From contig CALWHR010000047.1 in the NCBI GenBank assembly GCA_944380455.1, positions 1 to 44,287 on the forward strand: a stretch of 44,287 nt of DNA, written 5' to 3'. Origin of the DNA: an uncultured Clostridia bacterium. Lineage in GTDB: Bacteria > Bacillota > Clostridia > Lachnospirales > Anaerotignaceae. The notes beneath the pieces were generated by a model. That model ran no database searches. It saw nothing but the letters and a program-made list of their open reading frames with translations, and was not told the DNA's origin. The translations under genes were made by a program, and so were the position numbers. Shown here in pieces: positions 7,430 to 43,231 of the stretch (the stretch's first letter is position 1; every line of letters starts with the position of its first letter).

Positions 7430-8287
7430 ATGAAAAGATTTATTTGTGCGGCAGCAATAGCCGCAATTATGCTTGGCGGATGTTCTTCGGGTGAAAGTTC
7501 TTCATCTGCATCTGGCTCAACGTCGCAAACATCATCTGCTTCACAGGAGCAGGCTTCTTCTTCAGAGCAGACATCACAAGAAGCGCAGGCAGAGCTTGAC
7601 GCTCTTAAAGAAAAGCTTTTTACAGACGGAACAAGTTTCCCTCAGCTTGAAGAGCCGGAAAAAGGCGAGGAGATAGCTGTTTTTACAACAAACAAAGGCG
7701 TAATTAAAATTAAACTCTGCCCGGAGGAAGCTCCAAAGGCAGTGGAGAATTTTAAAGGTCTTATAAACGAAGGATATTATGACGGCCTTACATTCCACAG
7801 AGTTATAAACGGCTTTATGATTCAGGGCGGAGACCCTAACGGCGACGGAACAGGCGGAGAAAGCATTTGGGGCGGTAAATTTGAGGACGAATATAACGGG
7901 GATATGTACCACTTCAGAGGCGCACTTGCTTATGCCAACAGCGGTATGGATACAAACGGAAGTCAGTTTTATATTGTTCAGTCACCGGCAGTTGAAGACG
8001 GGTATTTTGATTATATAGACCAGGTTGTAAACCAGTATGGTGACAGCGAGATTCTGTATGATTCAACAACCGGAAAAATAGTAAGAGTAAACTACTCAGA
8101 TAAAGCTAAAGAGGAATATAATACTCTTGGCGGAACACCGCACCTTGATTTTGGCTATACAGTTTTTGGCCAGGTAATAGAAGGCATGGAAGTGGTAGAT
8201 GCTATTGCGGCAGTTGAAACAGATGACAGTGACAAGCCTGCGGAAGATGTGGTTATAGAAAAAGCCGAGATAGTTAAATACGAGTAA
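7430..8287 (+). CDS. Cyclophilin-type peptidyl-prolyl isomerase lipoprotein
   Basis: This 285-residue protein is probably exported and anchored by lipid. It has a signal peptide with lipobox LGGC (Cys near residue 18), then a Ser/Gln-rich linker to about residue 52. A cyclophilin domain starts near residue 80 (FTTNKGVIKIKL). Catalytic-core stretches are TFHRVINGFMIQGGDPNGDG and GSQFYIVQS. An insertion of about 35 residues between the QFYI strand and the C-terminal FGQVIEGMEVVDAIA makes it longer than E. coli PpiA. By family knowledge it should assist folding of secreted proteins outside the membrane. It has its own promoter and terminator, so it is probably monocistronic. Confidence 0.92.
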   Translation: MKRFICAAAIAAIMLGGCSSGESSSSASGSTSQTSSASQEQASSSEQTSQEAQAELDALKEKLFTDGTSFPQLEEPEKGEEIAVFTTNKGVIKIKLCPEEAPKAVENFKGLINEGYYDGLTFHRVINGFMIQGGDPNGDGTGGESIWGGKFEDEYNGDMYHFRGALAYANSGMDTNGSQFYIVQSPAVEDGYFDYIDQVVNQYGDSEILYDSTTGKIVRVNYSDKAKEEYNTLGGTPHLDFGYTVFGQVIEGMEVVDAIAAVETDDSDKPAEDVVIEKAEIVKYE

Positions 8288-10112: not shown

Positions 10113-10186
10113 ATATGTTTCAGGCTTTCGGTAAGTTTTATGAGAAATTTTTAATTTTGCCAAATGTTAAATAAAACTTCATAAAA

Positions 10187-10214
10187 TTTACAATTTTATA
10201 TTGTATTATATAGT
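10187..10214 (+). promoter_or_regulatory. Possible promoter of the UspA-like gene
   Basis: TTTACA (10187-10192) and TATAGT (10209-10214) are separated by 16 bases and lie 57 bases before the start codon. Both boxes are one mismatch from consensus. The region is AT-rich, so chance similarity is possible. Confidence 0.4.
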
Positions 10215-12954: not shown

Positions 12955-13581
12955 ATGGGCAAACTTTTTATATCTGAGCACCCGCTTATGAAGCATAAAA
13001 TAGCAATGCTTAGGGATGAGAACACAAGCACAAAAGAGTTTAAAGAGCTTATAAGTGAGGTGGCGATGCTGCTTACATATGAGGCTACCCGTGAACTTCC
13101 TACTGTGGAAACCACTGTGCAGACACCTATTGCCGAGGCAAAATGCAGTAAAATTAAGCAGGATATAGTAATTGTGCCTATTTTAAGAGCCGGACTTGGT
13201 ATGGTAGACGGTGTTCACAGTATACTTCCTGCGGCAAAGGTAGGGCATATAGGCCTTTACAGAGACCCGGAAACACTTACACCTGTTGAATATTACTGTA
13301 AAGTACCTAAGGATATTGAAAATACTAAGGTTTTTGTTTTAGACCCTATGCTGGCTACAGGCAAAACAGCAGAAGCGGCTGTTGAGTTTTTAAAGGAACG
13401 CGGGGCAAAAGACATAACTGTAATTTGCGTTCTTGCAGCGCCAAACGGAGTTAAAACAGTTCAGTCATCTTTTGATGATGTTGATATATACGCAGCGGCC
13501 TATGACACCATGTTAAACGAAAAAGGGTATATAGTGCCAGGCTTAGGCGATGCCGGTGACAGAATGTTCGGCACTAAATAA
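12955..13581 (+). CDS. upp: Uracil phosphoribosyltransferase
   Basis: This salvage enzyme converts uracil and PRPP to UMP. It has 208 residues, normal length. Motifs are PILRAGLGMVDGV, GLYRDPETLTPVEYY, the PRPP-binding loop DPMLATGKTAEAAV, and the uracil-binding C-terminus GYIVPGLGDAGDRMFGTK. An AGGAGG site sits just before ATG 12955. It is co-transcribed with rpiB. The tagO-like gene follows after about 80 bases that probably encode that gene's missing N-terminus. Confidence 0.97.
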   Translation: MGKLFISEHPLMKHKIAMLRDENTSTKEFKELISEVAMLLTYEATRELPTVETTVQTPIAEAKCSKIKQDIVIVPILRAGLGMVDGVHSILPAAKVGHIGLYRDPETLTPVEYYCKVPKDIENTKVFVLDPMLATGKTAEAAVEFLKERGAKDITVICVLAAPNGVKTVQSSFDDVDIYAAAYDTMLNEKGYIVPGLGDAGDRMFGTK

Positions 13582-23448: not shown

Positions 23449-23800
23449 GGGGATGTAATGGTTTCGACGGGAGTTCCAAAAACAGGGATAGCCATCCGCA
23501 GAACCGATGAGCTGCGTTAAAATCATGGGAATTTTAAAAAATAAACGACAAAGATTATACTTTACAGGCAGCCTAAGCGCTGCCCGTCGGCCTTTAATCT
23601 ACCGCAGTTGAAGTAACCGGCGTCATGCATGCGGCCAACTTTTTCGCCAAAGCTTTGAGGCGGAAAAAGATTTATGAAGCTACCAAGGTTTGCAGCCTGC
23701 CTTTGGGCGGTAAAACGAGGGAATGTTAAAACACAGGATGTGATGGGAGAAGTCCTTGCGGCGGGGTTTTCGGACAGGGGTTCGATTCCCCTCATCTCCA
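23449..23800 (+). ncRNA. ssrA: Transfer-messenger RNA (tmRNA)
   Basis: This is the 10Sa RNA that rescues stalled ribosomes and tags the nascent protein. The 5' end GGGGATG pairs with the 3' CATCTCC, followed by the discriminator A (23800). The conserved GTAATGGTTTCGACGG start and the GGGGTTCGATTCCCC T-arm (from 23778) are present. CCA is not encoded. The tag frame lies at about 23541-23576 and reads N-D-K-D-Y-T-L-Q-A-A-stop. The codon before Asn is ATA, not the usual GCA, and an in-frame TAA sits two codons further up (23535-23537). The tag is thus unusual at both its first residue and its LQAA ending. Confidence 0.95.
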
Positions 23801-23803
23801 TTA

Positions 23804-27947: not shown

Positions 27948-27976
27948 TTGACACTAATTGGTAAATATGTTAAAAT
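27948..27976 (+). promoter_or_regulatory. Promoter of the methyltransferase/ABC transporter operon
   Basis: TTGACA (27948-27953), a 17-base spacer and TAAAAT (27971-27976) give a near-consensus vegetative promoter. Transcription should start at about 27983, some 127 bases before the first start codon and directly ahead of the attenuator-like leader. Confidence 0.75.
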
Positions 27977-27982
27977 TTTCGA

Positions 27983-28090
27983 CAGATAATTAATTTCCGT
28001 ACGAAGCGGATGAATATAACACAGAATTTTAAAGTGCCACGAAGGCAAGATATAGTTTGTACGACTATGTTTTGTTTTCGTGGTTTTTTG
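27983..28090 (+). promoter_or_regulatory. Attenuator leader with two ACGAA-loop hairpins (riboswitch or antiterminator target)
   Basis: Hairpin 1 is TCCGT-ACGAA-GCGGA (27996-28010). Hairpin 2 is TGCC-ACGAA-GGCA (28035-28047). Both display the same five-base loop. The bases of hairpin 2 (28037-28046) are also the 5' arm of a 20-bp terminator helix, 28037-28056 with 28064-28083, closed by a seven-base loop and followed by six T residues (28084-28089). The two structures exclude each other, the layout of an ON-switch in which stabilising hairpin 2 allows read-through. Paired hairpins with ACGR-type loops recall the mini-ykkC/guanidine-II riboswitch, but that class has four-base ACGR loops, so membership is only a suggestion. 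An RNA-binding antiterminator is the alternative. Confidence 0.7.
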
Positions 28091-28109
28091 TTTAGGGAGG
28101 AATTTATTT

Positions 28110-28832
28110 ATGAATAGTGTAGATAATTACTGGGATGAACGTGCCGAAAGCTACAGTGAGCAGAATATAAGCCAGCTTGACAGAAAAGAAAAATGGAAAA
28201 GTGTATTAAACAAATATATGCCGGAAGGTAAAAACGCCAAAATTCTTGATATAGGCACAGGTCCGGGATTTCTTGCAATTTTAATGGCAAAAGAGGGGTA
28301 TAATGTAAGTGCTGTTGACAGAAGCGGCCAAATGATTTATCATGCTGTACAAAACGCTCAGCATGAAAATGTAGATGTTGACTTTAAAGTAGTGGGCGAC
28401 GAAATGCCTTTTGAGGAAAACAGCTTTGATATGATACTTTCAAGAGATGTTGTTTGGATGCAGAAAGAGCCGGAAAAAACACTTGAATCATGGTATAAAC
28501 TCCTTAAAAAAGGCGGTAAAATGGTATATTTCGATGCCGACTGGTATGGTTATTTAAGAGACGATGAGTCTATAAAAGGTTACAAAGAGCACAGAAAAAA
28601 CGTAGAGAAAAACAACGGTTTTGTTTATACAAAGGCTAACGAAATGGAAGAGATGGCGCATGATTTTCCTCTTACTTATCAGGCAAGGCCTCAGTGGGAT
28701 GTGGAGTTCTGGAATAAACAAAATACCGACGGCGTTTTATGCGAAACTGAGCTCAACAGCAGTATTTACTCCAATCTGGAGCAATTACAGTACGAGAAAA
28801 ATCAGGAATTTTTAATTTGCGTAAAAAAATAA
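28110..28832 (+). CDS. Class I SAM-dependent methyltransferase
   Basis: This 240-residue protein is of Methyltransf_11 type. The SAM-binding motif I is AKILDIGTGPGFLAILMAKEG. The acidic motif II is VSAVDRSGQM. FDMILSRDVVWMQKEPEKTLESWYKLLKKGGKMVYFD matches motifs III-IV. The start is ATG 28110, nine bases after GGGAGG; an in-frame GTG at 28080 lies inside the terminator hairpin of the leader. It is the first gene of an operon with a complete Opp/Dpp/Nik-type ABC importer, so its substrate is probably the imported compound or a metal-binding ligand made for import. That link is inference. Confidence 0.85.
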   Translation: MNSVDNYWDERAESYSEQNISQLDRKEKWKSVLNKYMPEGKNAKILDIGTGPGFLAILMAKEGYNVSAVDRSGQMIYHAVQNAQHENVDVDFKVVGDEMPFEENSFDMILSRDVVWMQKEPEKTLESWYKLLKKGGKMVYFDADWYGYLRDDESIKGYKEHRKNVEKNNGFVYTKANEMEEMAHDFPLTYQARPQWDVEFWNKQNTDGVLCETELNSSIYSNLEQLQYEKNQEFLICVKK

Positions 28833-28841
28833 GGCGGTAAA

Positions 28842-29804
28842 ATGAGACATTTAGGCACTGTATGTAAAAAAATAGCCATAAGCGCTGTTCAAACAGCTGT
28901 TATACTAATTGGCATAACTTTAGTTACATTTTTTATACTGCATATTTCACCTGTTAATCCGGCTGAAATTTACCTTATGGGAAACAGCGGTAATGTGGGT
29001 CAGGTTTCTCAGGAGGCAATAGAAGAACAGGAAAAGAAAATGGGTCTTGATAAGCCCTTTATAGTGCAGTATGCTTCATGGCTTAATAATGTTGCTCATG
29101 GCGATTTAGGAAAGTCCATGACTACATCTAAGCCTGTAAAAGATGAAATAGCGGAACATGCCGTGCCTACAGCAGTCTTAACCGCTGTGTCTTTATTAAT
29201 TACAGTGCTGATATCAGTACCGCTGGGGATTTACTGTGCCGTTAAAAAAGACAGAGCTTTGGATAATATTGTGCGGATATTTTCGTTTTTGGGAATATCA
29301 ATGCCGTCGTTTTTTATATCGCTGGTACTGCTTTGGATATTTTGCTTAAAGCTTCAGGTATTGCCGGTTATTGCCCAAAGAAGTCCAAAGGGCATGATAC
29401 TTCCGGCAGCAGTGCTTATTATTCAGTGCTCGTCAAAGTATATACGCCAGGTGCGTGCTGTGGTTTTGGAACAGCTTAATCAGGAGTATGTAATGGGTGC
29501 AGCAGCAAGAGGTGTAAGCGAAAGGGATATTTTGTTTAAGCATGTGCTTAAAAACTCAGCCGTTCCTATTTTAACATGGTGCGGAATGTATTTCGGTATA
29601 ATGCTTGGAGGAGCTTCTGTTATAGAAACAATTTTCTCATGGGACGGTTTAGGCAAACTGGCGGTAGAGTCGGTTACAACACTGGATTATTATATGATAC
29701 AGGGCTTTGTACTGTGGACAGCAGTTGTGTTTTTAATTGTTAACTTTGCCGTTGATGTTGCAGGGGATATTATAGACCCAAGAGTTAAAAGGGGGCGGAT
29801 ATAA
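28842..29804 (+). CDS. ABC transporter permease, Opp/Dpp/Nik type, first subunit
   Basis: This 320-residue inner-membrane permease belongs to the DppB/OppB/NikB group. It has an N-terminal helix and periplasmic segment (residues 40-105), then about five more membrane helices. The EAA loop is AAARGVSERDILFKHVLKNS, which contacts the ATPase. The conserved GGASVIETIFSWDGLGKLAVESV follows. Its stop codon shares one base with the next start (TAATG), so translation is coupled. The imported compound could be a peptide, nickel complex or another small solute. Confidence 0.92.
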   Translation: MRHLGTVCKKIAISAVQTAVILIGITLVTFFILHISPVNPAEIYLMGNSGNVGQVSQEAIEEQEKKMGLDKPFIVQYASWLNNVAHGDLGKSMTTSKPVKDEIAEHAVPTAVLTAVSLLITVLISVPLGIYCAVKKDRALDNIVRIFSFLGISMPSFFISLVLLWIFCLKLQVLPVIAQRSPKGMILPAAVLIIQCSSKYIRQVRAVVLEQLNQEYVMGAAARGVSERDILFKHVLKNSAVPILTWCGMYFGIMLGGASVIETIFSWDGLGKLAVESVTTLDYYMIQGFVLWTAVVFLIVNFAVDVAGDIIDPRVKRGRI

Positions 29805-30619
29805 TGGAAAAAAGGAGATATCCTGCTTCATTTTGGGTTTTATTGATACTTATTACGGCTTTATTTGCTGTTGCTGTATCAGCGCCGGTTTTAGCTCCTA
29901 ACGACCCTAATAAATCAAGCCTTATGGACGCACTTAAAGGGCCAAGCGCGCAGTTTCCTTTAGGCACAGACCCATTAGGCAGATGCCTTTTGTCAAGAAT
30001 GCTTTACGGCGCAAGGGTGTCGATATTCAGCAGTTTAATAATTATAGCCATAGTATTTGCTTTTGGCACTGCCGTAGGTGTTTTTTCCGGGTATACAGGA
30101 GGTGCGGCAGATATGATTTTAACTAAAGTAATATCTATTACTCAGGCATTTCCTAAAATAATACTGGCTATAGCCATAGCCGGAGTTTTGGGAATAGGCA
30201 TTAAAAATACCATTATTGCCCTTTGTATTGTGGAATGGGCGGAGTATGCCAGAATGGCCAGAAGCCTTACAGTTGGCATTAAAGAGCGGACATTTATTAA
30301 AGCCGCCAGAATTTGCGGCAAAAGCAGGATAGATATTATGTTTGAGCATATACTGCCCAATATTATGCCGCCTTTAATTGTTAATGCCTCTTTGGGTATA
30401 GCTTCTATGATTATGGAAGTGGCAGCTCTTTCATACTTGGGTGTTGGAGTGCAGTCACCTATGGCTGAATGGGGCGCAATGATGAATACTGGAAAGGATT
30501 ACGTTCAGACAAATATATCTCTTGTTATTGTTCCGGGAGCGGCCATATTTATAACTGCGGTTATTTTTAATCTTTTTGGAGAAAAAATAAGAGATGTTTT
30601 AGAGACAAAGACTAATTGA
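29804..30619 (+). CDS. ABC transporter permease, Opp/Dpp/Nik type, second subunit
   Basis: This 271-residue permease belongs to the DppC/OppC/NikC group and forms a heterodimer with the previous subunit. The N-terminal helix is followed by the family stretch FPLGTDPLGRCLLSRMLYGARVS. The EAA loop is AARICGKSRIDIMFEHILPN, and SYLGVGVQSPMAEWGAMM is typical near the C-terminus. About six membrane helices are visible. The coding start overlaps the preceding stop by one base. Confidence 0.92.
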   Translation: MEKRRYPASFWVLLILITALFAVAVSAPVLAPNDPNKSSLMDALKGPSAQFPLGTDPLGRCLLSRMLYGARVSIFSSLIIIAIVFAFGTAVGVFSGYTGGAADMILTKVISITQAFPKIILAIAIAGVLGIGIKNTIIALCIVEWAEYARMARSLTVGIKERTFIKAARICGKSRIDIMFEHILPNIMPPLIVNASLGIASMIMEVAALSYLGVGVQSPMAEWGAMMNTGKDYVQTNISLVIVPGAAIFITAVIFNLFGEKIRDVLETKTN

Positions 30620-30643: not shown

Positions 30644-32209
30644 ATGAATATAAAGCTTTTAAAAACAGCGGTGTTTGCTTTGTGTGCCGTTTTTCTTACA
30701 TCCTGCGGCTCATCGGGTGCGGCTACTTCACAGATGTCTTCAGGTGAAAGCACAGGCACTGATAATTCATCTGACACGGCAGTATTTGCCGATACCCAGT
30801 GTCCTACAAATCTTGACCCGGCTGAAAGCTGGAACAGCTGGTATACATCAAGATACGGTATAACGGAAACACTTTATAAACTTGATGACAGCCTTGCGGC
30901 TCAGCCGTTTTTGGCTCTTTCATGCGAAATGACTGATGAAACAACATGGGTAATTACATTAAGAGATGATGTTACATTCCAAAACGGTGAAAAAATGACA
31001 GCCGAAAGTGTTAAATCCTGCTGGGAAAGAACTCTTGAGAAAAATCCAAGATTAGGTGAGCTTTTATTTATTAGCCAGATGGAGGCTTCTGGCCAGCAGC
31101 TTACAGTTAAAACTTCAGAACCTGTTCCGGCGTTTATAAATGGTCTTTCTGAGCCTTTGTCAGGGATATATTATGTAACGGATGATGAATCAATTGCACA
31201 AAATCCTATAGGCACAGGACCGTTTAAAGCTGTAAGCTACGAGATTAACAAGCAGGCAGTTGTTGAAAGATATGACGGCTATTGGGGCGGCACTCCGAAA
31301 CTTAAATCAGCGGTGTTTAATGTAATTTCCGATACAAATGCCCTTGTAATGGCGCAGCAGACAGGTGAAAGTGACCTTTCAGTAAGCATACCGGGAAGCA
31401 GTCTTGAGCTTTTTTCTGACACATCGAAGTATAATACAGACGGTGTTGCAGGCTCAAGAGGTCAGGTTATATTTATGAACTATGACAACGAGTTTATACA
31501 GGATATAAACATACGCAAAGCCATAAGCATGTGTATTAACAAACAGGGTTATGCCGAAATTTTAAATAAAGGCGCGTCTGTGCCGGCTAACGGATTATAT
31601 CCGGATTTTATGGACTTTGGAGCAAAAGAGGATTTAACAGGCGGATATGACATTGAAGGTGCAAAGAAAATATTGGCTGATGCCGGATATACAGACACAG
31701 ACGGCGACGGAATAGTGGAAAAAAATGGAAAGCCGGTTTCTCTGAGAATTGTAACTTACAGCACAAAGGCTGAACTTTCAATGTTCTGCGAGGAAATGGC
31801 ATCAAGCTTAAAGGAAGCAGGTATAGACCTTAAAGTTGAAGTTTATAAGTCTGTAACTGAGCATGAAAAAACAGGCGATTTTGATTTGCTGATGATAAGC
31901 TTTACAATGTGTCCTACAGGCGACCCGCTGTATTTTGCTAATATAGCATTTAAAACTAACGGCAGCAGCAATTACGGACATTATTCCAATCCTGAAGCCG
32001 ACAGCATTATAGATAAAATGAACCGAGAGTTTGATACGGAAAAAAGAAATGAACTGGCGGAAGAACTTCAGAAGGTAATTTGTGAGGATGCAGGGTATAT
32101 TGTAATAGGTCATTCAAAATATATATATGTAATGAGCTCAAATGTTAAAGGCCTTAAAACAAACCCTTCGGAGTACTATTTGTTAGACGCCCAGACATAT
32201 ATTCAGTAA
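30644..32209 (+). CDS. Solute-binding lipoprotein of the ABC importer (SBP_bac_5 family)
   Basis: This 521-residue extracellular receptor is lipid-anchored. The signal peptide ends in a lipobox LTSC (Cys near residue 21), followed by a Ser/Gly/Thr-rich linker. The SBP_bac_5 fold shows NLDPAESWNSWYTSRYGITETLYKL, the WVITLRDDVTFQNGEKMTA motif, NPIGTGPFK and a VVERYDGYWGG region. NikA-like proteins share this fold with peptide-binding OppA and DppA. I see no decisive ligand residue. AAGGAG precedes ATG 30644. Its position between permeases and ATPases is like nikBCADE-type operons rather than classical oppABCDF order. Confidence 0.9.
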   Translation: MNIKLLKTAVFALCAVFLTSCGSSGAATSQMSSGESTGTDNSSDTAVFADTQCPTNLDPAESWNSWYTSRYGITETLYKLDDSLAAQPFLALSCEMTDETTWVITLRDDVTFQNGEKMTAESVKSCWERTLEKNPRLGELLFISQMEASGQQLTVKTSEPVPAFINGLSEPLSGIYYVTDDESIAQNPIGTGPFKAVSYEINKQAVVERYDGYWGGTPKLKSAVFNVISDTNALVMAQQTGESDLSVSIPGSSLELFSDTSKYNTDGVAGSRGQVIFMNYDNEFIQDINIRKAISMCINKQGYAEILNKGASVPANGLYPDFMDFGAKEDLTGGYDIEGAKKILADAGYTDTDGDGIVEKNGKPVSLRIVTYSTKAELSMFCEEMASSLKEAGIDLKVEVYKSVTEHEKTGDFDLLMISFTMCPTGDPLYFANIAFKTNGSSNYGHYSNPEADSIIDKMNREFDTEKRNELAEELQKVICEDAGYIVIGHSKYIYVMSSNVKGLKTNPSEYYLLDAQTYIQ

Positions 32210-32220
32210 CAGGTGATAAT

Positions 32221-33153
32221 ATGCTTGATATAAAAAATTTAAGCGTTTCTTACGGCAAAACACGTGTTGTACGTAATTTAAGCTTAAAAGTTAATACCGG
32301 CGAAATAGTTTGTATTGTAGGAGAGAGCGGCTGCGGTAAAAGCACCGCTCTTAAATCCGTTTTAATGCTGGATAAAAATGCTTCCATTTCAGGCGGAGAG
32401 ATTTTATTTGACAATAAGGATATTACAAAGCTTAAAACTGAGGAAATACGGCATTTAAGAGGCTCTGAAATAGCCATGATATTTCAGAATTCCTATCTGT
32501 CAATGAATCCAACAAAAACCATAGGGCACTTGTTTTATGAAACTGTTAAGGTACATAATAAAAAGGCGAAAAAAAATCAGTGCCTTGAAAAAGCCGAAGA
32601 AATTATGAAAAAACTGCGGCTTTGGGAAACAGAGCGTATTTTCAGCTCCTATCCATTTGAGCTTTCCGGGGGAATGTGCCAAAGAATAGCTATAGCGGCG
32701 GCTATGATGAATGACCCGAAACTTATACTGGCAGATGAGCCTACAAGCGCACTTGATGTAACAGCACAGGCAGAGGTTATACGCCTTTTAAAGTATGTAA
32801 AAGACAATTATAATACTTCAATGCTTATTGTAACCCATAATATGGGAGTTGTAGCTAATCTTTCTGACAAAGCCGCTGTAATGTACGGCGGAAGCATTGC
32901 GGAGTTTGGCGATACATGGGATATAATAAATAATCCTGCTCATCCATATACAAAAGCATTAATAAAAGCCGTTCCCGAGATGAACGGTAAAGTGCCGGAA
33001 GGTATAGAAGGCCTTCCGCCGGAATTTAGTGATGAAAAAGGCGGATGTCCTTTTGCCCCAAGATGCTATAGTGCAAAAGATATATGCTATAAAAATTCAC
33101 CTGAAAAACATGTTGTTTCAAAAGAGCATATTGTTTATTGTAATTTTTGTTGA
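32221..33153 (+). CDS. ABC transporter ATPase, Opp/Dpp/Nik type (D-like)
   Basis: This 310-residue ATPase powers the importer. Walker A is GESGCGKST, the signature is LSGGMCQRIAIAAAM, and Walker B with its neighbour is LILADEPTSALD, followed by the switch His in VTHNM. The C-terminal oligopeptide-transport extension has cysteine-rich GGCPFAPRCYSAKDICY. Family members use such cysteines to hold an iron-sulfur cluster or structure. It follows the binding-protein gene by 11 bases. Confidence 0.93.
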   Translation: MLDIKNLSVSYGKTRVVRNLSLKVNTGEIVCIVGESGCGKSTALKSVLMLDKNASISGGEILFDNKDITKLKTEEIRHLRGSEIAMIFQNSYLSMNPTKTIGHLFYETVKVHNKKAKKNQCLEKAEEIMKKLRLWETERIFSSYPFELSGGMCQRIAIAAAMMNDPKLILADEPTSALDVTAQAEVIRLLKYVKDNYNTSMLIVTHNMGVVANLSDKAAVMYGGSIAEFGDTWDIINNPAHPYTKALIKAVPEMNGKVPEGIEGLPPEFSDEKGGCPFAPRCYSAKDICYKNSPEKHVVSKEHIVYCNFC

Positions 33154-33175: not shown

Positions 33176-34111
33176 ATGTGTCTGCTTAAAGTTACAGGAT
33201 TAACTAAAACTTACAAAAATAAAAAAACAAATATACGTGCTGTTAAGGGGATAGATTTAAGTATAAACGAAGGGGAGTGTCTTGGCCTTGTAGGAGAAAG
33301 CGGATGTGGAAAAAGCACTACAGCCGAGATTATAGCAAGGCTTATAAAAGAGGACTCAGGCACAATAGTATTTAACGGTACAGAAATAACAGATGACAAA
33401 AGGCTTAAATGCGTGGGAAAAGATTTGCAAATGGTTTTTCAAAATCCAAAGGATTCATTTGACCCTAAATACAGCCTTTTAGAATCTGTTATGATGGGAG
33501 CTTGTTCTTATAATATATATTCAAAAAGCCAGTTAAGACAAAAAGCTCTGGAGCTTATCAGATACGTGGGTTTAAAAGAATCTTATTCCAATAGAAATAT
33601 ATATAATTTAAGCGGCGGTGAATGTCAGAAGGCTTCTATAGCAAGGGCACTTATATGTTCTCCAAAGCTTATAATATTTGATGAAGCTACAAGCGCGCTG
33701 GACGTTTCTGTTCAGGCGCAGATAATAGAGCTTATGCTGAGGCTTAAAAAAGAAAATAAAATGTCATTTCTTTTTATTACTCATGACTTGGCTTTGGCTT
33801 CTTCTGTATGCGACAATATTGCTGTTATGTATTCCGGAAGGATAGTAGAATACGGGCCGTGCCGGGATGTGCTTTCATTGCCTAAGCATCCCTATACAAA
33901 ACAGCTTATTTTATCTGTTTTGCCTGTAAAAACTCAGGGAGAATTTAAAACTCCGGAATTTAAAGCAGTACGCAAAGAAAAAGGCGGCGGGTGCGATTAT
34001 TTTCCTTTCTGTCCAAAAGCTGATGACAAATGCGCAGCACTTATGCCGGAATTTGTAAAACACAATAAAACAAAGGTGCTATGCTGGCTTAACGAAAATA
34101 ACGAAGTTTAA
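33176..34111 (+). CDS. ABC transporter ATPase, Opp/Dpp/Nik type (E/F-like)
   Basis: This is the second ATPase of the importer, 311 residues from ATG 33176 (MCLLKVTGLTKTYK). The open frame continues up to 33029 inside the previous gene, but no ribosome site supports that. Walker A is GESGCGKSTT, the signature is LSGGECQKASIARAL, Walker B is LIIFDEATSALD, and the switch His is in ITHDL. EAT replaces the usual EPT, a common variant. The C-terminal extension has CDYFPFCPKADDKC. It is the last gene of the attenuator-controlled operon, and no clear terminator follows it directly. Confidence 0.92.
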   Translation: MCLLKVTGLTKTYKNKKTNIRAVKGIDLSINEGECLGLVGESGCGKSTTAEIIARLIKEDSGTIVFNGTEITDDKRLKCVGKDLQMVFQNPKDSFDPKYSLLESVMMGACSYNIYSKSQLRQKALELIRYVGLKESYSNRNIYNLSGGECQKASIARALICSPKLIIFDEATSALDVSVQAQIIELMLRLKKENKMSFLFITHDLALASSVCDNIAVMYSGRIVEYGPCRDVLSLPKHPYTKQLILSVLPVKTQGEFKTPEFKAVRKEKGGGCDYFPFCPKADDKCAALMPEFVKHNKTKVLCWLNENNEV

Positions 34112-35656: not shown

Positions 35657-36934
35657 TTAAATCTGTGTAACCAAGTTCCCTTCACTGTTAAACTCAAGCT
35701 CAAAAGGCTCGCTTGTTATAGTAAGCTGCTCTCTTGTTTTAGCTTCTGGAATAAGTGCTTCGGAAATAAGCATATCTTCAATTTCCAGTGAGTTTTTAAG
35801 TATAATAATTCTTGGATTATTTACATCCATATTAAGGCATATAGCCATTGATGTCTGGATACATTCCTTTTCGTTTTCAGCTATAAGAGGAATTTTATAT
35901 ACTGAGCTGTCGTGGTCTGTTACGGCATTAGGATATGTATCATCAAATGAAATCTGGTGGAAGAACTTCATTGTGCCTACATCGGCTCTTCCCATACCAG
36001 TTGCGTTGCCGTGAGACTCTTCGCTTAACTCAAAAATACCCATTCTTTCGGATTTAATTCCTATAGGAAGTCTTGAACGGCCTACTACGTTAGGGTCCAT
36101 ACCGCCGCCGCTGTAGTTTTTGCCTATTTTTTCAAGTATAAGTACATCGCAGGCATCAAGGAAAATTTTACCCATAGCAGCTTTTGCTTCGTTAAGAAGC
36201 TCAGGCTCTTTTTCTGGTATTTCTTCAGGCTGAAGGAAAGCGATTTTATATGTTTTGTCAAAAGCGTTTTCCATTAAGCCTACACCCATAATAATGTTTG
36301 CTTTGCGTATTATTTCGCTTCCTATAGAGAATAAACGCTCAGGCATTGCGTCATCTCCAGCTGAGTGTGCCACATAAGCTCCAGCCTGTTTGCCAAGACC
36401 TACTGTCATCATTTTCATAAGGCCGCTTTCGTACTTGCCTTTAAAGCCAGTATGTGCTTTAATTCGATTAACAACTATAATGCCGTCTGCTTCATAAGCG
36501 TTTTTGTCTATCTGAACATCTACGTCTATTTCGTCAGCATGGCCTATTTTAACTGTTTCCATAGAAGAAATAATAGGGCATCCCATAGTTTCTTCTGTAA
36601 TTCCATAGCCAGTTAAAATTCCTCTCTGGCCTTCTGCTGTAGCACCGCCGTGGCTTCCCATAGCCGGTATAATGAAAGGCTCTGCACCAAGAGCTTTAAC
36701 CTGTTTAACGATTTCTCTTGTAATAACAACAATATTTGAAACACCGCGGCTTCCGCTTGTTATACAGATTCTCTGACCTGGTTTTATTTTGTCTTTAAAT
36801 TCTGGTTTGGCAAAGTTTTCGGATATTAAAGAAATTATATCTTCCTCGGAAAGCTCGTTATGCGGAAAATATTGTTTTACCCTTACGAAACGAGGTATTT
36901 TCATTTGTTCTACTAAGTGAGTTATTCCTGACAT
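35657..36934 (-). CDS. LarA-like protein (nickel-pincer racemase/epimerase family)
   Basis: This 425-residue protein starts at ATG 36934 (MSGITHLV), seven bases from GGAGG; ATG 36940 is only one base from it. It resembles lactate racemase LarA, which uses a nickel-pincer nucleotide. Candidate residues are R63 (SGSRG), H95 (GSHGG), H161 (IKAHTG), K174 (GLMKM) and H190 (YVAHSAG). The H95-H161 and K174-H190 spacings equal those I recall for LarA His108-His174 and Lys184-His200, with three extra residues between. Lactate itself is unlikely because the locus is different. A racemase or epimerase of another hydroxy acid is the best guess. No larB, larC or larE lies in the window. It is the last gene of the minus-strand operon. 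Confidence 0.7.
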   Translation of the reverse strand: MSGITHLVEQMKIPRFVRVKQYFPHNELSEEDIISLISENFAKPEFKDKIKPGQRICITSGSRGVSNIVVITREIVKQVKALGAEPFIIPAMGSHGGATAEGQRGILTGYGITEETMGCPIISSMETVKIGHADEIDVDVQIDKNAYEADGIIVVNRIKAHTGFKGKYESGLMKMMTVGLGKQAGAYVAHSAGDDAMPERLFSIGSEIIRKANIIMGVGLMENAFDKTYKIAFLQPEEIPEKEPELLNEAKAAMGKIFLDACDVLILEKIGKNYSGGGMDPNVVGRSRLPIGIKSERMGIFELSEESHGNATGMGRADVGTMKFFHQISFDDTYPNAVTDHDSSVYKIPLIAENEKECIQTSMAICLNMDVNNPRIIILKNSLEIEDMLISEALIPEAKTREQLTITSEPFELEFNSEGNLVTQI

Positions 36935-36964
36935 TGCCATTCCTCCTCAAGAAATACTTTAATA

Positions 36965-37355: not shown

Positions 37356-38555
37356 TTAATCCTGGCATACACTTAAAGCAGTAAGTGCATAAATTTTAGC
37401 TGCGTTTACAAGGTCATCGATTTTAACCCACTCATTTGCTTTGTGTATGCAGTCAAGTGTTCCAGGGCCGAACATTAATGCCGGAATACCGTTTTTATTG
37501 AAGAAATAGTTATCTCCCTGTGCTATAAAGCCGCTTAAACCTGCCTGCTCGCCTGTAGCTGTTTTTGAGTTTTCGAGAAGTGCTTTAACAAGCTGATTGT
37601 CTTCGGAAATATGTACTGCATTTGATGTACGTGCACAGAACTCTACTTCAGCATCAAATGTAGGGTCTTGCGCTTTAAGGTCTGATATCATATCTCTGAT
37701 TGCGCCTATAACCCCATCGTATGTCTGACCAGGAACAAGTCTGCCGTCAATTTTAAATGTACATTCATCAGGAACTATATTAATTCCCATACCGCCTTCT
37801 ATTGTACCTATATTAAGGGAGCCGTTTCCAAGAAGTGGGTCAGGAGTATATTCAACACCTTTTTTATCTATCATGTATATAAGTTTGGCAGCATTTACAA
37901 CAGCATTTACTCCAAGATGAGGCTTGCTGCCGTGGGCTGTTACACCTTTAACTTTTACTTCCATCCATGCACAGCCCTTATAAGCTACAACAACTTTCAT
38001 CTCTGTCTGCTCTGCGTTTATAAAAAAGTCAGGTGCAACAATTTTATTTTCTGCAAGATAGTTCATTCCGTAAGGACTGCCTATTTCCTCATCTACAGTT
38101 GCCACAAACTGCACATTACCTTTAAGCTTAATATCACATTCTTTAAGTGCCTTTAATGCCATAAAGCAGCATGCAAGTCCGCCTTTCATATCGGCTGCGC
38201 CGCGGCCGATAAGGTTACCGTCTTTTACTGTAGGGCAGAAGCCGCCTTCTGTTTCCCATGTTGCTTCATCTGCTGCTACTACATCGTAATGTCCGCCCAT
38301 AGCAAGAGTTTTTCCGCCGCCTGTACCTTTGTATTCAGCAACAAGATTAGAGCCGCCTGGAGCCTGTGAATATTTTTTTGCCTCAATACCAAATTTTGCA
38401 AACTCTCCGATAAGATAGTCTGCTTCTTTGTCATACATTTCATTGGAGTTTTCTCTGCCTGATATTGAAGGTACACTTATAAGTCCAGAAGCTATTTTTA
38501 CAAGCTCATCTCGGTTTTTGTCTATATAATCTATTATTTTTTCTGCGTTTGTCAT
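37356..38555 (-). CDS. M20-family metallopeptidase (ArgE/DapE-like amidohydrolase)
   Basis: This 399-residue zinc amidohydrolase resembles acetylornithine deacetylase or succinyl-diaminopimelate desuccinylase. Zinc-binding and catalytic stretches are MGGHYDVVAADE (His, Asp), GRGAADMKGGLACCFMAL (bridging Asp), ATVDEEIGSPYG (catalytic and zinc Glu) and INAEQTEM (Glu). The dimerisation domain begins at VKGVTAHGSKPHLGVNA. ATG 38555 has GGAAA upstream. It lies in the LarA-like/unknown-gene operon with no arg or lysine genes, so it probably removes an N-acyl or amide group from the catabolic substrate. The exact substrate is unknown. Confidence 0.88.
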   Translation of the reverse strand: MTNAEKIIDYIDKNRDELVKIASGLISVPSISGRENSNEMYDKEADYLIGEFAKFGIEAKKYSQAPGGSNLVAEYKGTGGGKTLAMGGHYDVVAADEATWETEGGFCPTVKDGNLIGRGAADMKGGLACCFMALKALKECDIKLKGNVQFVATVDEEIGSPYGMNYLAENKIVAPDFFINAEQTEMKVVVAYKGCAWMEVKVKGVTAHGSKPHLGVNAVVNAAKLIYMIDKKGVEYTPDPLLGNGSLNIGTIEGGMGINIVPDECTFKIDGRLVPGQTYDGVIGAIRDMISDLKAQDPTFDAEVEFCARTSNAVHISEDNQLVKALLENSKTATGEQAGLSGFIAQGDNYFFNKNGIPALMFGPGTLDCIHKANEWVKIDDLVNAAKIYALTALSVCQD

Positions 38556-38616
38556 ACTATTAATTTTCCTTGATAGAATAATAAGAAACTTATGTCATCA
38601 GTTTTTAATAGTTAAT

Positions 38617-38641
38617 CAGGCTCTTGGATAGCAAGAGCCTG
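38617..38641. repeat. Perfect inverted repeat between two operon genes
   Basis: CAGGCTCTTG (38617-38626) and CAAGAGCCTG (38632-38641) form a 10-bp perfect hairpin with a five-base loop in the 122-base gap before the M20 gene. No T tract follows on the minus strand, so it looks like an mRNA processing or stabilising element, or a leaky terminator, rather than a full terminator. Confidence 0.6.
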
Positions 38642-38677
38642 AAAAGAAAGAGAGTAAAACGGTTTTGAGTTTTGTTT

Positions 38678-39718
38678 TTAAATCTCTACGTATCTTATTT
38701 CACAAATATCTGATACAGCGTATTTTTTAGCGCCTTCCATACCAGGGATGATTTCGTCTGCATGAGCAATTACTTCTTCTCTGCTCATTACTTTTGAAGG
38801 AGCTTCAAGTTTTTCACGTGTAATACCAACACTTTCAAGCTCTATCCATGCGCGCTGAGCAATATTGTCAAGGTCAATAGGCTTGCCGTATGCCTTTGCA
38901 AGGCTAAGTACGGCAGGGGAGCAGCCTATATCGCGTCCAGCTACAAGGCCGATATCAAAGGCGCGAAGGGTATGCTCTGCTAAAACGCTCTTTGGTGCGG
39001 CGATTGCTGGATAATCCTGTTTTACTGTTTTTGCATATTTTCCGGAGTTATGAGCTGACATTCCGGCACGGTAAGCACCTAAGTTTTTGCCGCCGAAAAT
39101 TCTGCCGTGTCTTTCGCTTACAACCATACCGATACCAACAGATACAACAGGTCCGGCTATACCTATAATAACTTCGCCGTCTGTCATAATCTGATGCATG
39201 CCAAAGTAAGGAGCTAAAATTTCTGTCATTTCAACCATGTTCATAACTTCTGAACCGCAGTTGTTGTTTGCAATACGACCAGACATAGTCATATTTTCGT
39301 TGTTAGGTCCTCTGTTTCCTCTGTCTTCAGCGCTTGGTCCTCTATGTAAAGGTCTGCCCTTATATTCGTCCATAAGCCACTGTTTCATATGAGGTTCTTC
39401 CTTAATCATCTGGTCTGAATAAGGGAGAGGGCTTATATTAAGATATCCATAGTTCTGGTTAATAAGTCCATGGTCAACAGATGCTACGCCTACAACAGCG
39501 CCAGGAGCCATAATACCATCACTTGTAACTGTTACAGCATCTAAATCAATTATATCTACGGCAGCACAGTCATCACCAAGAGCTTTTCCAACTGCATAGC
39601 AAGCCTCGAGGTCTGTAATGCCACATTCTTTAACGTCTTTTTTATCAATAAATACCCAGTTTAATGGCACCATTCCGTCTGCGGCACCCTGAGGAATAAT
39701 ACGATATTTAAGTTTCAC
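38678..39718 (-). CDS. Uncharacterised 346-residue protein of the LarA-like/M20 locus
   Basis: I do not recognise the family. It starts with GTG 39718, eight bases after GGAGG. The protein is soluble and without signal. Notable segments are the N-terminal IPQGAADGMVPLNWVFIDKKDV, a central polar stretch (RPLHRGPSAEDRGNRGPNNENM, residues about 123-144), then a Gly-rich IIGIAGPVVSVGIGMVVSERHGRIFGGKN and GLVAGRDIGCSPAVLSLAKAYG. The two Gly-rich stretches and conserved-looking Cys and His residues suggest an enzyme. It pairs with the 125-residue gene 17 bases upstream and is probably the second gene of a catabolic operon. Confidence 0.7.
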   Translation of the reverse strand: MKLKYRIIPQGAADGMVPLNWVFIDKKDVKECGITDLEACYAVGKALGDDCAAVDIIDLDAVTVTSDGIMAPGAVVGVASVDHGLINQNYGYLNISPLPYSDQMIKEEPHMKQWLMDEYKGRPLHRGPSAEDRGNRGPNNENMTMSGRIANNNCGSEVMNMVEMTEILAPYFGMHQIMTDGEVIIGIAGPVVSVGIGMVVSERHGRIFGGKNLGAYRAGMSAHNSGKYAKTVKQDYPAIAAPKSVLAEHTLRAFDIGLVAGRDIGCSPAVLSLAKAYGKPIDLDNIAQRAWIELESVGITREKLEAPSKVMSREEVIAHADEIIPGMEGAKKYAVSDICEIRYVEI

Positions 39719-39735
39719 AGTGATTTCCTCCTTTA

Positions 39736-40113
39736 TTATTTCTTGATATTAGCGCGGCGGTCAATGATTTCTTTTGCACCGAAAAGATGAGTTTCAACAG
39801 TAGGTGCTGAAAGCATCATATTTTCAAGAATAACTTTTTTGCATGAACCGTCTGCTTCGATACCTTTAATAACAACTGTGTAAAGTGTCTCAGGATTATC
39901 TGTAGTAAGCACTACTTCAACTTTTTTGATATCGCTATCCTCTATAATCTCTGTGATTTCATCTTCAACACGGCCTACTCTTAAAGAAGCAAGCTTTGCT
40001 GTTTTTACATTCTCAAGGCCGCTTACTGAAAAGCCCATATCAGGGTTGTTCTGCTTAGCAGCAGCCTCAATTTTTGTATAGAAATCCGGTAATCTTGTAT
40101 GCATTAATTTCAT
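39736..40113 (-). CDS. Uncharacterised 125-residue protein, first gene of the operon
   Basis: No family is recognised. The start is ATG 40113 with AGGAG ten bases upstream; a second ATG three codons later is also possible. It is a small alpha/beta protein with RLPDFYTKIEAAAKQ at the N-terminus, a strand-rich middle (KKVEVVLTTDNPETLYTVVIKGI) and a basic C-terminus. No cysteine-rich or membrane segment is present apart from a single Cys near residue 91. Immediate co-direction with the 346-residue gene suggests the two proteins act together. A 533-base spacer separates it from the upstream DUF819-type gene. Confidence 0.65.
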   Translation of the reverse strand: MKLMHTRLPDFYTKIEAAAKQNNPDMGFSVSGLENVKTAKLASLRVGRVEDEITEIIEDSDIKKVEVVLTTDNPETLYTVVIKGIEADGSCKKVILENMMLSAPTVETHLFGAKEIIDRRANIKK

Positions 40114-40646
40114 TAATTAGACACTCCTTTCAAAAGTGAGTTTTATTTTTCCAACAGTTTTTAAAACTGTTTAGTAACGGTTTTAATTCGTTTCTGCAGC
40201 CTGTATTAAACTGTAAAATTACATCATCAGGCTGTTATCAGCTTATTTACTGCTTGATTTAAGTATTAGGTGATAGTTTTAGTAAATAGCTGTTTTCCGG
40301 CTGAGTTTAAAATATATTGTGTTTACCAACACTGATATTCTGTTTTAAGAGGGACACTGTTTGAGAGTATTGTGCCGGTTTCACATGATGATAAAATAAC
40401 ATATCAATATTTATTGTTCTTTTGTCATTGTACCTGAATATATGTATTTGTGATTAAACTAAGAAGATATGTTAACAGATTTTCCAGGTTGTTATTATGC
40501 TATATTATATGAATACATACATATTTAATAATATTAATAAGTTATTAACTCAAACAGTATAAAATACCTCCCTCTTTAATTAGCTCTGTAATATTTAAAG
40601 TGCAGCATCTACAATGCGGCTTACAACTACATTTGGTTTTGTTTTA
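40114..40646. other. 533-base intergenic region with no gene
   Basis: There is no coding frame with a ribosome site in any of six frames. Small inverted repeats are visible (AACAGTTTT/AAACTGTT at about 40154-40172 and GCAT/ATGC near 40604-40616), but no clear terminator or promoter. A weak TACAAT on the minus strand near 40430 lacks a good -35. The region should hold the operon's promoter and perhaps sites for the PucR-type regulator, but I cannot locate them. Confidence 0.5.
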
Positions 40647-41812
40647 TTATGCCAAAAAGTGTAGGAAGTGACCAAATAGAATTGCTAAACCTGTTCCCAC
40701 AATATCGCCGAAAAATCCTAAAAGAATACCGAAAGAAATCCAGTTAGGATTATGTGTTGCTGCGATAAGAGGCGCAGAAGATGTACCGCCTATGTTAGCT
40801 GTAATTGCGACTTCTGCTGTAAATAAATCAAACTTAAATATTTTAGAGAATAATGTCCACATGGCAAACATAACAATTAACATTATTACGCATAATACAA
40901 GGAATCCAGGAGCCTGTGTGCACTGCTTTAAGTCAGAATACGATGCTGTTACGCACATACAAGCATAAAGAAAAACATTAGCACATTCTGTAGCACCTTT
41001 TAATTTTCTTGCCGGTGTTACGCCAAGAATTATACCGAGTATTGATGAAAAAACAACTCTCCAGCCTGTAGCATTAAGGAATGTAACAGGAGGAAGATGA
41101 GGTATAATAGAATTTATTGCCCATGTACCGCAAAGAGCTACGCCGAAAAGTTTTAAGTAGTCAAGCATTGTGCATGTGTTTATGTCAGGGTCTGTGTCTT
41201 CGGCAATACGCTTTGCTATTTCATCAAGACCGTCGGTATTGGCTTTCATAAATTTATTCCACTGCTGCTTTTTCTGTATGAGGGCCATTATTACTGTCAT
41301 AAATATTGTGAATGCAAATGTAACCATCATAACGCTGTAGGCGTAATCAACGCCTTCAACACCAAATACACCCGCAACAGCAACCATGTTTATGGTTTCA
41401 CCAATAAATGATCCTGTTGTAGCGGCAATAATCGCCCATGCGTTTTCAGGAAGAAAACCTTTGCATATAAGGAAAGCTACTGTAAAGCCTGTCATAATTG
41501 ATAAAGATGAAAGAAGGCCATAATCATTCTTGACCCAAGCTTTATAACTTTTCTTATATCACAGGTAAGCATGAACATAATAAGCATCATAGGAAGGAAA
41601 TTGGCATACATAAAGTTCTGAGCGTCTATAACGCCTTGGGCTGTAATGTCGTATACGCCGAATGTAGAACAAATAGCCATAAAAAGGAATATCCATATAA
41701 TAGCGGGTAAAATTTCTATAACCTTAGTATGTTCAAACTTTTTGCAAATTGAGAAAATTACTGCCATTGAAGCGAATATAAAAGCGTAAAATCCCAAAGA
41801 TGATGTGATCGT
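40647..41812 (-). pseudogene. DUF819-family membrane protein, frameshifted and without a normal start codon
   Basis: Two frames together make one polytopic protein of about 388 residues like B. subtilis YjcL (DUF819, a putative transporter). The upstream frame (to about 41510) ends LPMMLIMFMLTCDIRKVIKLGSRMIMAFF. The downstream frame continues SSLSIMTGFTVAFLICKGF, then ATTGSFIGETINMVAV and NIGGTSSAPLIAATH. The join needs one extra T in the run at 41508-41514, so one base is missing there. At the 5' end the frame opens behind GGAGG (41820-41824) at ACG 41812, not ATG; the first standard start is TTG 41797. It may be a decaying gene or a sequencing error. Position next to the PucR gene suggests it carried the pathway substrate. 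Confidence 0.8.
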
Positions 41813-42007
41813 TAAACAACCTCCTTATAAAAATTTAGGACAGACGCTTTTGTATACTGCTCAACACTTCAATTTGTATTTTATGATTAAATTTTAATAC
41901 ATAAAGATTTAAAATGATACAGCAAAGTGTCACTATTATATTGTGCATATGAACAAATAAATTTTTTAAAAACAATATAATATTTTATTTATTTAACAAA
42001 TAATAAA

Positions 42008-42016
42008 TGATATAAT
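42008..42016 (+). promoter_or_regulatory. Extended -10 promoter of the PucR-type regulator
   Basis: TGATATAAT (42008-42016) is a perfect extended -10 element, 49 bases before the TTG start. The -35 region is only a run of A and T (TTTATT at 41988-41993), which extended -10 promoters tolerate. Confidence 0.5.
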
Positions 42017-42064
42017 ACTATATATATGAAATTTTTTTTATAATTAAGGAAGAAGGTAATGTAA

Positions 42065-43231
42065 TTGACTATTAGTATTGAACAATTAGTAAACAATCTT
42101 CCGCCTTATTACAGAATTCGTTTGGTAGCGGGCAAAAAAGGTATTTCAAATACGGATATCGGCTGGGTTTCAGTTGTTGAAGACTACGATACCGAAAAGT
42201 TTAAAAATACAAACCGCATAGTTCTTACCTCGGGAATGCATATAAAAAGTATGGATGAAGTTTTGAATTTTGCCCAAAACCTTCATAAAGTTAAGGCGCC
42301 GGCACTTTTTATAAATACAGGAAAATATATAAAAGAAGTTCCCGAAGAAGTTAAGGAATACTGTGATAAAGTAGATATGCCTCTTTACACTATTCCATGG
42401 GATGTGCTTATGAGCGATGTGGCAAAAGACATTGTTCATGCTCTTGTGCAGGAAGAAACTAAAAATTTAAGTGTGGCAGAGCTTATGCAGAGTATTATAT
42501 TTAATACGGAAAATCTTTCTAACCAGCTTAACAAACTGTCTTTTTACGGATTTTCCGACGAAGAAACATACTGCCCTATTATTATTAAAGTAGATGATAT
42601 TCATGATTATGACCATCATACTTTTTTAAAAAGTGTTAAAATGTGCTGTGAAAGAACGGCTGAGGAAACGGAAAGCGTATTAATAGCTTTTTTGTATAAC
42701 AGAATTGTAACGGCAATACTTGTAAATGCGCCTAAAAACAAAGAGGAAGATTTTATTAAGGCGCTTGACGCAAATTTGTCTGTAAGATTTTATAACTGCA
42801 AGTCATACATATGCGTTGGACGAAACGAAAGTATATATAATCTTTCGGTTAATTTTAAAAGACTTCTGCCTATTATGAATGTAGCCATTAAAAACAGTAA
42901 CCGCATTTTGTATTATGACAAAATGGGAATGTACAAAATTCTTTCTGAAGTAAATGATATGTCCATTTTAAAGGATATGTATAATGAAACTATAGGCAGG
43001 CTTATTCAGTACGACAATGAGAACAATGGTGATTTAACAGATTACATAAAAAATTATATACAATGCGATGGTAATGTTCAGACGGTGGCAAATAATTTTT
43101 TTGTTCACAGAAATACTGTAAATAATAAGCTAAATAAAATTAAAGAAATAACACAAATAAATCCGCTTACTCTCGACGGAAAAATAGTTTTTTCAGCAGC
43201 CATAAAAATCTCTGAGCTCTATAATTTATAA
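42065..43231 (+). CDS. PucR-family transcriptional regulator
   Basis: This 388-residue regulator has an N-terminal PucR domain (residues 5-125; GKKGISNTDIGWVSVVEDYDTEKF and ALFINTGKYIKEVPEEVKEYCDKVDMPLYTIPWD). A central GGDEF-like or CdaR-type region follows. The C-terminal helix-turn-helix (IKNYIQCDGNVQTVANNFFVHRNTVNNKLNKIKEI, about 325-360) is of HTH_30 type. The start is TTG 42065, eight bases after AGAAGG; the nearby ATG 42059 is followed at once by a stop codon. It is divergent from the DUF819 and LarA-like locus. Family members activate purine, amino-acid or hydroxy-acid catabolic genes, so it is the likely activator here. Confidence 0.88.
   Translation: MTISIEQLVNNLPPYYRIRLVAGKKGISNTDIGWVSVVEDYDTEKFKNTNRIVLTSGMHIKSMDEVLNFAQNLHKVKAPALFINTGKYIKEVPEEVKEYCDKVDMPLYTIPWDVLMSDVAKDIVHALVQEETKNLSVAELMQSIIFNTENLSNQLNKLSFYGFSDEETYCPIIIKVDDIHDYDHHTFLKSVKMCCERTAEETESVLIAFLYNRIVTAILVNAPKNKEEDFIKALDANLSVRFYNCKSYICVGRNESIYNLSVNFKRLLPIMNVAIKNSNRILYYDKMGMYKILSEVNDMSILKDMYNETIGRLIQYDNENNGDLTDYIKNYIQCDGNVQTVANNFFVHRNTVNNKLNKIKEITQINPLTLDGKIVFSAAIKISELYNL

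Follow-up and report, generated by a model that had tools for sequence, protein, structure and literature searches.

The window, which is the whole analysed stretch of 44,287 nucleotides from an uncultured Clostridia bacterium of the family Anaerotignaceae, contains an operon leader with two tiny hairpins, P1 and P2. Comparison with related leaders indicates that this leader is a real and conserved element beyond chance. With a rough probability of 55%, we read it as the antitermination element of a nickel (or cobalt) uptake regulon, which would be held in its read-through form by a loop-binding protein when nickel is scarce. Gut and acetogenic clostridia need nickel for their hydrogenases, CO dehydrogenase, urease and nickel-pincer enzymes. 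The data point to a form of RNA-based control over metal uptake, so far undescribed, in many clostridia. The genes behind the leader appear to form a new RNA regulon whose type of mechanism is known, with a putative partner and a putative signal.

The leader elements lie on the forward strand. A sigma-70-type promoter (27948..27976) was located by sequence inspection: the -35 box TTGACA starts at 27948, the spacer is 17 nt, and the -10 box TAAAAT, preceded by TG, ends at 27976. With 11 of 12 consensus positions, it is near consensus, in line with the good promoter that the sequence-only reading had described. Hairpin P1, UCCGU[ACGAA]GCGGA (27996..28010, -5.7 kcal/mol), and hairpin P2, UGCC[ACGAA]GGCA (28035..28047, -4.9 kcal/mol), were both recovered exactly where that reading had placed them, and both are supported by folding and covariation. 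The intrinsic terminator (28037..28089) consists of a perfect 20-bp helix (28037-28056/28064-28083) and six T (28084-28089), and its energy alone is -29.1 kcal/mol. P1 is outside the terminator, and both strands of P2 are shared with the terminator 5' arm. The full leader folds at -36.7 kcal/mol compared with a shuffle mean of -17.9 (z = -6.0). When folding was followed against transcript length, P1 and P2 had a probability of about 1 until the polymerase reached about 28073, and the terminator displaced P2 from 28076-28079 onward. The terminator thus replaces P2 once its 3' arm is transcribed. This indicates that P2 and the terminator are mutually exclusive, as had been claimed, and that the default state is OFF and the P2 state is ON.

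The operon behind the leader is encoded on the forward strand. Its first gene is a class I SAM-dependent methyltransferase (28110..28832; PF08241, 1.2e-18), whose relatives precede nik importers. It is followed by a NikB/Opp2B-type permease (28842..29804; Opp2B nickel permease, E 3.9e-100, just below the cut-off), a NikC-type permease (29804..30619; TIGR02790, E 2.1e-87, below the cut-off) and a NikA-type substrate-binding lipoprotein (30644..32209; Opp5A_nikA, E 1.3e-118, below the cut-off). The last two genes are, by profile matches, a NikD/OppD-type ATPase (32221..33153) and a NikE/OppF-type ATPase (33176..34111; the start codon is a probable one within an open frame from 33029). The importer proteins therefore score near but under the curated nickel cut-offs, and nickel is the probable cargo as judged by gene content. 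Outside the operon, on the reverse strand, is a nickel-requiring neighbour, a nickel pincer cofactor-dependent isomerase of group 22 (LarA family; 35657..36940; NF052515, 486 bits, cut-off 400). The earlier assignment to an Opp/Nik-type importer can thus be narrowed to nickel, since CbiM, cooT and nikABCDE-larEBC stand under homologous leaders elsewhere and the nickel-pincer isomerase lies next to the window operon. Beside the isomerase, an M20 peptidase, a DUF819 membrane protein and a PucR-type regulator are encoded at 37356-43231, perhaps as a catabolic cluster for the isomerase substrate.

Two other genomes of the window's genus carry the same leader in front of their orthologous operon, with methyltransferase identities of 96% and 87%. 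Within the family, related operons at 42-46% and 27-35% methyltransferase identity are also preceded by the leader. Named relatives with the leader are Geosporobacter ferrireducens, Clostridium puniceum, Alkalibacter mobilis and one Lachnospiraceae MAG. The covariance search proposed by the sequence-only reading was performed in clostridia, and copies were found at related operons and in distant families. The covariance model R2, built from 12 unedited leaders, picked up the copies in distant families and those in front of other genes; only the earlier model R1 used a seed (A4) in which the flanks or the linker of three leaders had been slightly altered. For every copy that was accepted, the presence of a terminator of its own and the gene behind it were checked. 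Weak model matches (L157-L166, L187, L188, L192) were rejected, being mostly within reading frames and without a terminator. Similarly, two weak matches (C72, C45) in the genome that the window belongs to have no terminator to partner with.

The leader alignment was then analysed for covarying stems. Among the 12 leaders, 94.8% of the cells are paired, versus 70.2% after shuffling, and 6 of the 8 pairs are changed on both sides; the score was reached by 0/500 shuffles. Pairing and covariation are also well above slid controls. In 32 curated leaders, pairs 1-4 of P1 hold in 126/128 cells and each occur as four to six pair types, although these leaders were partly picked by their stems, and the 12-leader covariation and the twin-P1 test are the cleaner evidence. 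In the latter test, a strict ANGRA P1 was found at most 90 nt upstream in 24 of 33 leaders with P2 and a terminator, taken from outside the Acetobacterium/Eubacterium group, whereas 0.16 are expected from shuffles. Among 20 leaders found without a P1-based search, 12 have a strict P1 versus about 0.1 expected. The relatives' leaders and the stem covariation support the earlier view of a conserved ON-type transcription attenuator made from two hairpins.

The loops are conserved in a relaxed form. Both window loops are ACGAA as first described, but this sequence is not strict in the relatives, where the consensus is A-N-G-(A, rarely G)-A, mostly ANGAA. Of 64 curated loops, 57 have five bases, six have four bases and one is a hexaloop (Alkalibacter P1, AAAGAA); the P1 loop is sometimes of four or six bases. 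A leader-peptide reading, with ATG AAG in the loop, was ruled out because the loop elsewhere is ACGAA or AAGAA. The linker between P1 and P2 is 4-100 nt long, with a median of about 32 and mostly 20-100. The second loop base can be A, C, G or U/T across leaders, and it is identical between P1 and P2 in 21 of 31 leaders, compared with 9.7 expected. This matching looks as if a single partner reads both hairpins.

P1 is not universal. In Acetobacterium species, Eubacterium callanderi and Alkalibaculum, P2 is found alone, with P1 in 0/17 leaders. The sequence-only reading had counted homologous operons without the paired hairpins as evidence against a conserved switch, and such operons occur in part: many methyltransferase-nik operons of Lachnospiraceae and several of Clostridium are without the leader. 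The genomes with these leaderless operons are also without DUF3842, a protein discussed below. Some methyltransferase operons without twin hairpins, from Lachnospiraceae and Oscillospiraceae (L105, L144, L125, L127, L090, L093, L129), have a DNA-like element, ATCCCCCCNNGGGGCTTGT, near the promoter. This element is probably the site of another, DNA-level regulator of the methyltransferase operon.

The genes behind the leader share a metal theme. The leader precedes methyltransferase-nikBCADE, nikABCDE-larE-larB-larC (Lar proteins above curated cut-offs), and nikABCDE or nikBCADE without further partner genes. The larEBC genes are nickel-pincer cofactor genes. Similarly, the leader precedes methyltransferase-FmdE-FecBDE, FecB-FecD-FecE-methyltransferase, CbiM, and an ECF S-component (PF12822), the last of these in Acetobacterium and in five genomes from one distant family. 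In Desulfosporosinus a leader of the twin type precedes cooT (PF10133, 8.8e-24; solved relative PDB 6fan). This gene content suggests that the leader regulates nickel/cobalt genes and that nickel is the likely signal. The regulator NikR (PF08753) was found in 0/58 genomes of the window's family, while 5/14 control genomes were positive, and control of the nickel operon by NikR was ruled out by its absence from all 58. A conserved RNA element on nearly every type of nickel importer offers a handle on the regulation that is missing in this NikR-less family. The covariance model and the loop consensus could join RNA family libraries. Members of this methyltransferase family are also linked to LarC and to importers of the FecBCD type (L062, L063, L064, L058). 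The Desulfosporosinus nickel island (L142) holds three ANGGA-loop leaders within 10 kb (867, 7866-7930 and 10130-10190), together with nikA, cooT and a second methyltransferase; DUF3842 is at 13081-13515.

The following mechanism is proposed. Without help, the terminator would win and the operon would be off. A protein that recognises A-N-G-R-A loops would bind P1 and then P2, and the bound protein would hold P2 and allow polymerase read-through. Binding would take place under a shortage of nickel or of a nickel cofactor; the nickel-loaded protein would release the RNA, and uptake would stop.

DUF3842 is the leading candidate for this protein because of its co-occurrence with the motif and its position upstream of the leader; RNA binding by DUF3842 is conjectural. 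In the window's family, DUF3842 is present in 19/20 motif genomes versus 7/38 others (p 1e-8), and in methyltransferase-bearing genomes outside the family it is present in 14/14 motif-bearing versus 0/10 motif-free ones; both statistics are inflated by shared ancestry, and motif absence was judged at the methyltransferase locus only. The 10 motif-free genomes include four Clostridium species related to the motif-positive C. puniceum. The exceptions are seven family genomes in which DUF3842 is present and the motif was not found, and one genome (G037, 92% complete) in which the motif is present and DUF3842 was not found. In two lineages (family f31 and G295) the DUF3842 gene immediately precedes the leader, and it is also inside the Desulfosporosinus nickel island. 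It lies near larE-larB-larC in one genome (L224, G007:C36, 3860-8023) and near two LarA-like genes in another (L221, G045:C1). This proximity to lar genes suggests that DUF3842 is tied to nickel-pincer cofactor use. Elsewhere the gene is often among unrelated genes, and its synteny is mostly unrelated in the window's family. The protein carries a Rossmann-type motif rich in glycine, as well as a Cys that hardly varies. No solved relative was found in the PDB by sequence, and the single-sequence fold was poor (pLDDT 47). The near-perfect co-occurrence with the motif gives DUF3842 a testable function. The full proposal, in which the twin A-N-G-R-A antiterminators serve as the nickel-uptake regulon of many NikR-less clostridia and DUF3842 represents a new nickel-state-sensing family of RNA-binding antitermination proteins, is tentative and less likely than not. 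Compared with DUF3842, a partner of the CooT, CsrA-like or ANTAR type is less likely.

The leader was compared with known RNA elements. A scan of Rfam (release 15) at the gathering score gave no match, low-threshold scans gave chance matches only, and a literature search found no description of the element. The mechanism is of a known kind, and the element, its regulon and its probable partner appear to be new. The NiCo (czcD) riboswitch (RF02683) shares the nickel/cobalt theme and clostridial transcription attenuation. It is, however, a large junction aptamer that turns exporters on, it shares no sequence or structure with the leader, and it gave no Rfam match. The guanidine-II (mini-ykkC) riboswitch resembles the leader in its pair of tiny, similar hairpins, its short conserved loops and its unconstrained linker, and the sequence-only reading had considered a variant of it. 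This idea was rejected on the loop sequence and the Rfam model. The RF01068 model did not match the leader even at E<=10; its tetraloop is ACGR with a fixed C, whereas here the pentaloop is ANGRA with a free second base, and the P1 and P2 loop bases tend to be identical rather than complementary. The ACGR tetraloops can kiss through C-G, which the free second base here does not match. The SMR exporter and guanidine genes that form its context are also absent here.

A small riboswitch of another class is unlikely, though worth weighing. The two A-N-G-R-A hairpins would pack round a metal ion (nickel or cobalt) or a nickel cofactor, and this packing would protect P2 from the terminator with no protein involved. 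The guanidine-II-like layout with the second hairpin in the expression platform, the conserved loops on variable stems and the nickel-related genes downstream all agree with this. However, several lineages (Acetobacterium and relatives) keep P2 alone, and a ligand-bound P2 would let the metal switch its own importer ON, opposite to what homeostasis requires; for these two reasons a switch driven by a ligand alone is less likely. The linker of 4-100 nt and the conserved core of about 9 nt per hairpin also speak against it.

ANTAR targets (eut, nas, ami) have the nearest known architecture; the sequence-only reading had raised an ANTAR-like antiterminator as one option. ANTAR proteins read dual hairpins with A1/G4 hexaloops by successive binding (PMC3369931, PMC8934654). 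Like the leader, these targets have two small hairpins with variable stems and a conserved loop A and G, and P2 is embedded in an intrinsic terminator so that its formation gives read-through. A pentaloop variant of these targets, read by a glnA-linked ANTAR response regulator, would have the same layout, and 18/20 motif genomes of the family encode an ANTAR domain. However, ANTAR loops have six bases and the loops here have five; the absence of A1/G4 hexaloops seen earlier in the window extends to the relatives, where one of 64 curated loops (AAAGAA) fits. Most linkers here are 20-100 nt, while ANTAR linkers are 5-12 nt in eut, where 14 nt abolished EutV control, or 2-25 nt in Actinobacteria (PMC3369931, PMC8164766). 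The ANTAR regulon concerns nitrogen rather than nickel/cobalt uptake. A 100% complete genome of the window's genus (G051) has the leader and no ANTAR domain. The domain is found in all 18 named genomes tested, equally whether motif-bearing or motif-free, and its genes were seen mostly beside glutamine synthetase, not nickel genes. The co-occurrence, loop and linker tests weaken the ANTAR reading, and we consider it improbable: the resemblance holds for the layout and fails for loop size and linker.

A dimer of the CsrA or CooT family, reading the loops as CsrA-like ANGGA sites, is at least as improbable. CooT is a nickel-binding protein family that may bind RNA, as an old family name would suggest, and cooT itself is under a twin leader in Desulfosporosinus. 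We know of no CsrA that acts through such an antiterminator. A dimer could bridge two sites, and CsrA/RsmE sites are often paired. ANGGA loops occur in Desulfosporosinus and Desulfallas (including single-P2 Peptococcia sites) and in one P1 of the window's own genus, and they match the loop core ANGGA(N) of CsrA/RsmE sites (PMC7652899). CsrA requires GGA, yet most loops are ANGAA: GGA is in 3/64 curated loops, and the window loops are ACGAA.

Finally, a constitutive or position-effect terminator with the hairpins as mere by-products is very improbable. In its favour, the P2 loop of window-type leaders is also paired inside the terminator, which constrains part of its sequence. The comparative data contradict this reading: P1 is outside the terminator and covarying, the element is confined to one gene class, and the loop and 5' strand of P2 are still conserved in leaders of the L006 and f31 types, whose terminator arm begins only at the P2 3' strand.

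Two further observations were made. One copy (L193; G045:C1, about 86080-86180; 1530-1720) has a promoter, twin hairpins (GCAGTC[AAGAA]GATTGT and TTTAACC[ACGAA]GGTTAGA) and a terminator, with no same-direction gene for about 900 nt. It is possibly a small RNA that titrates the regulator, or a stranded leader. The window also carries a tmRNA gene at 23449-23803 with the tag peptide DKDYTLQAA.
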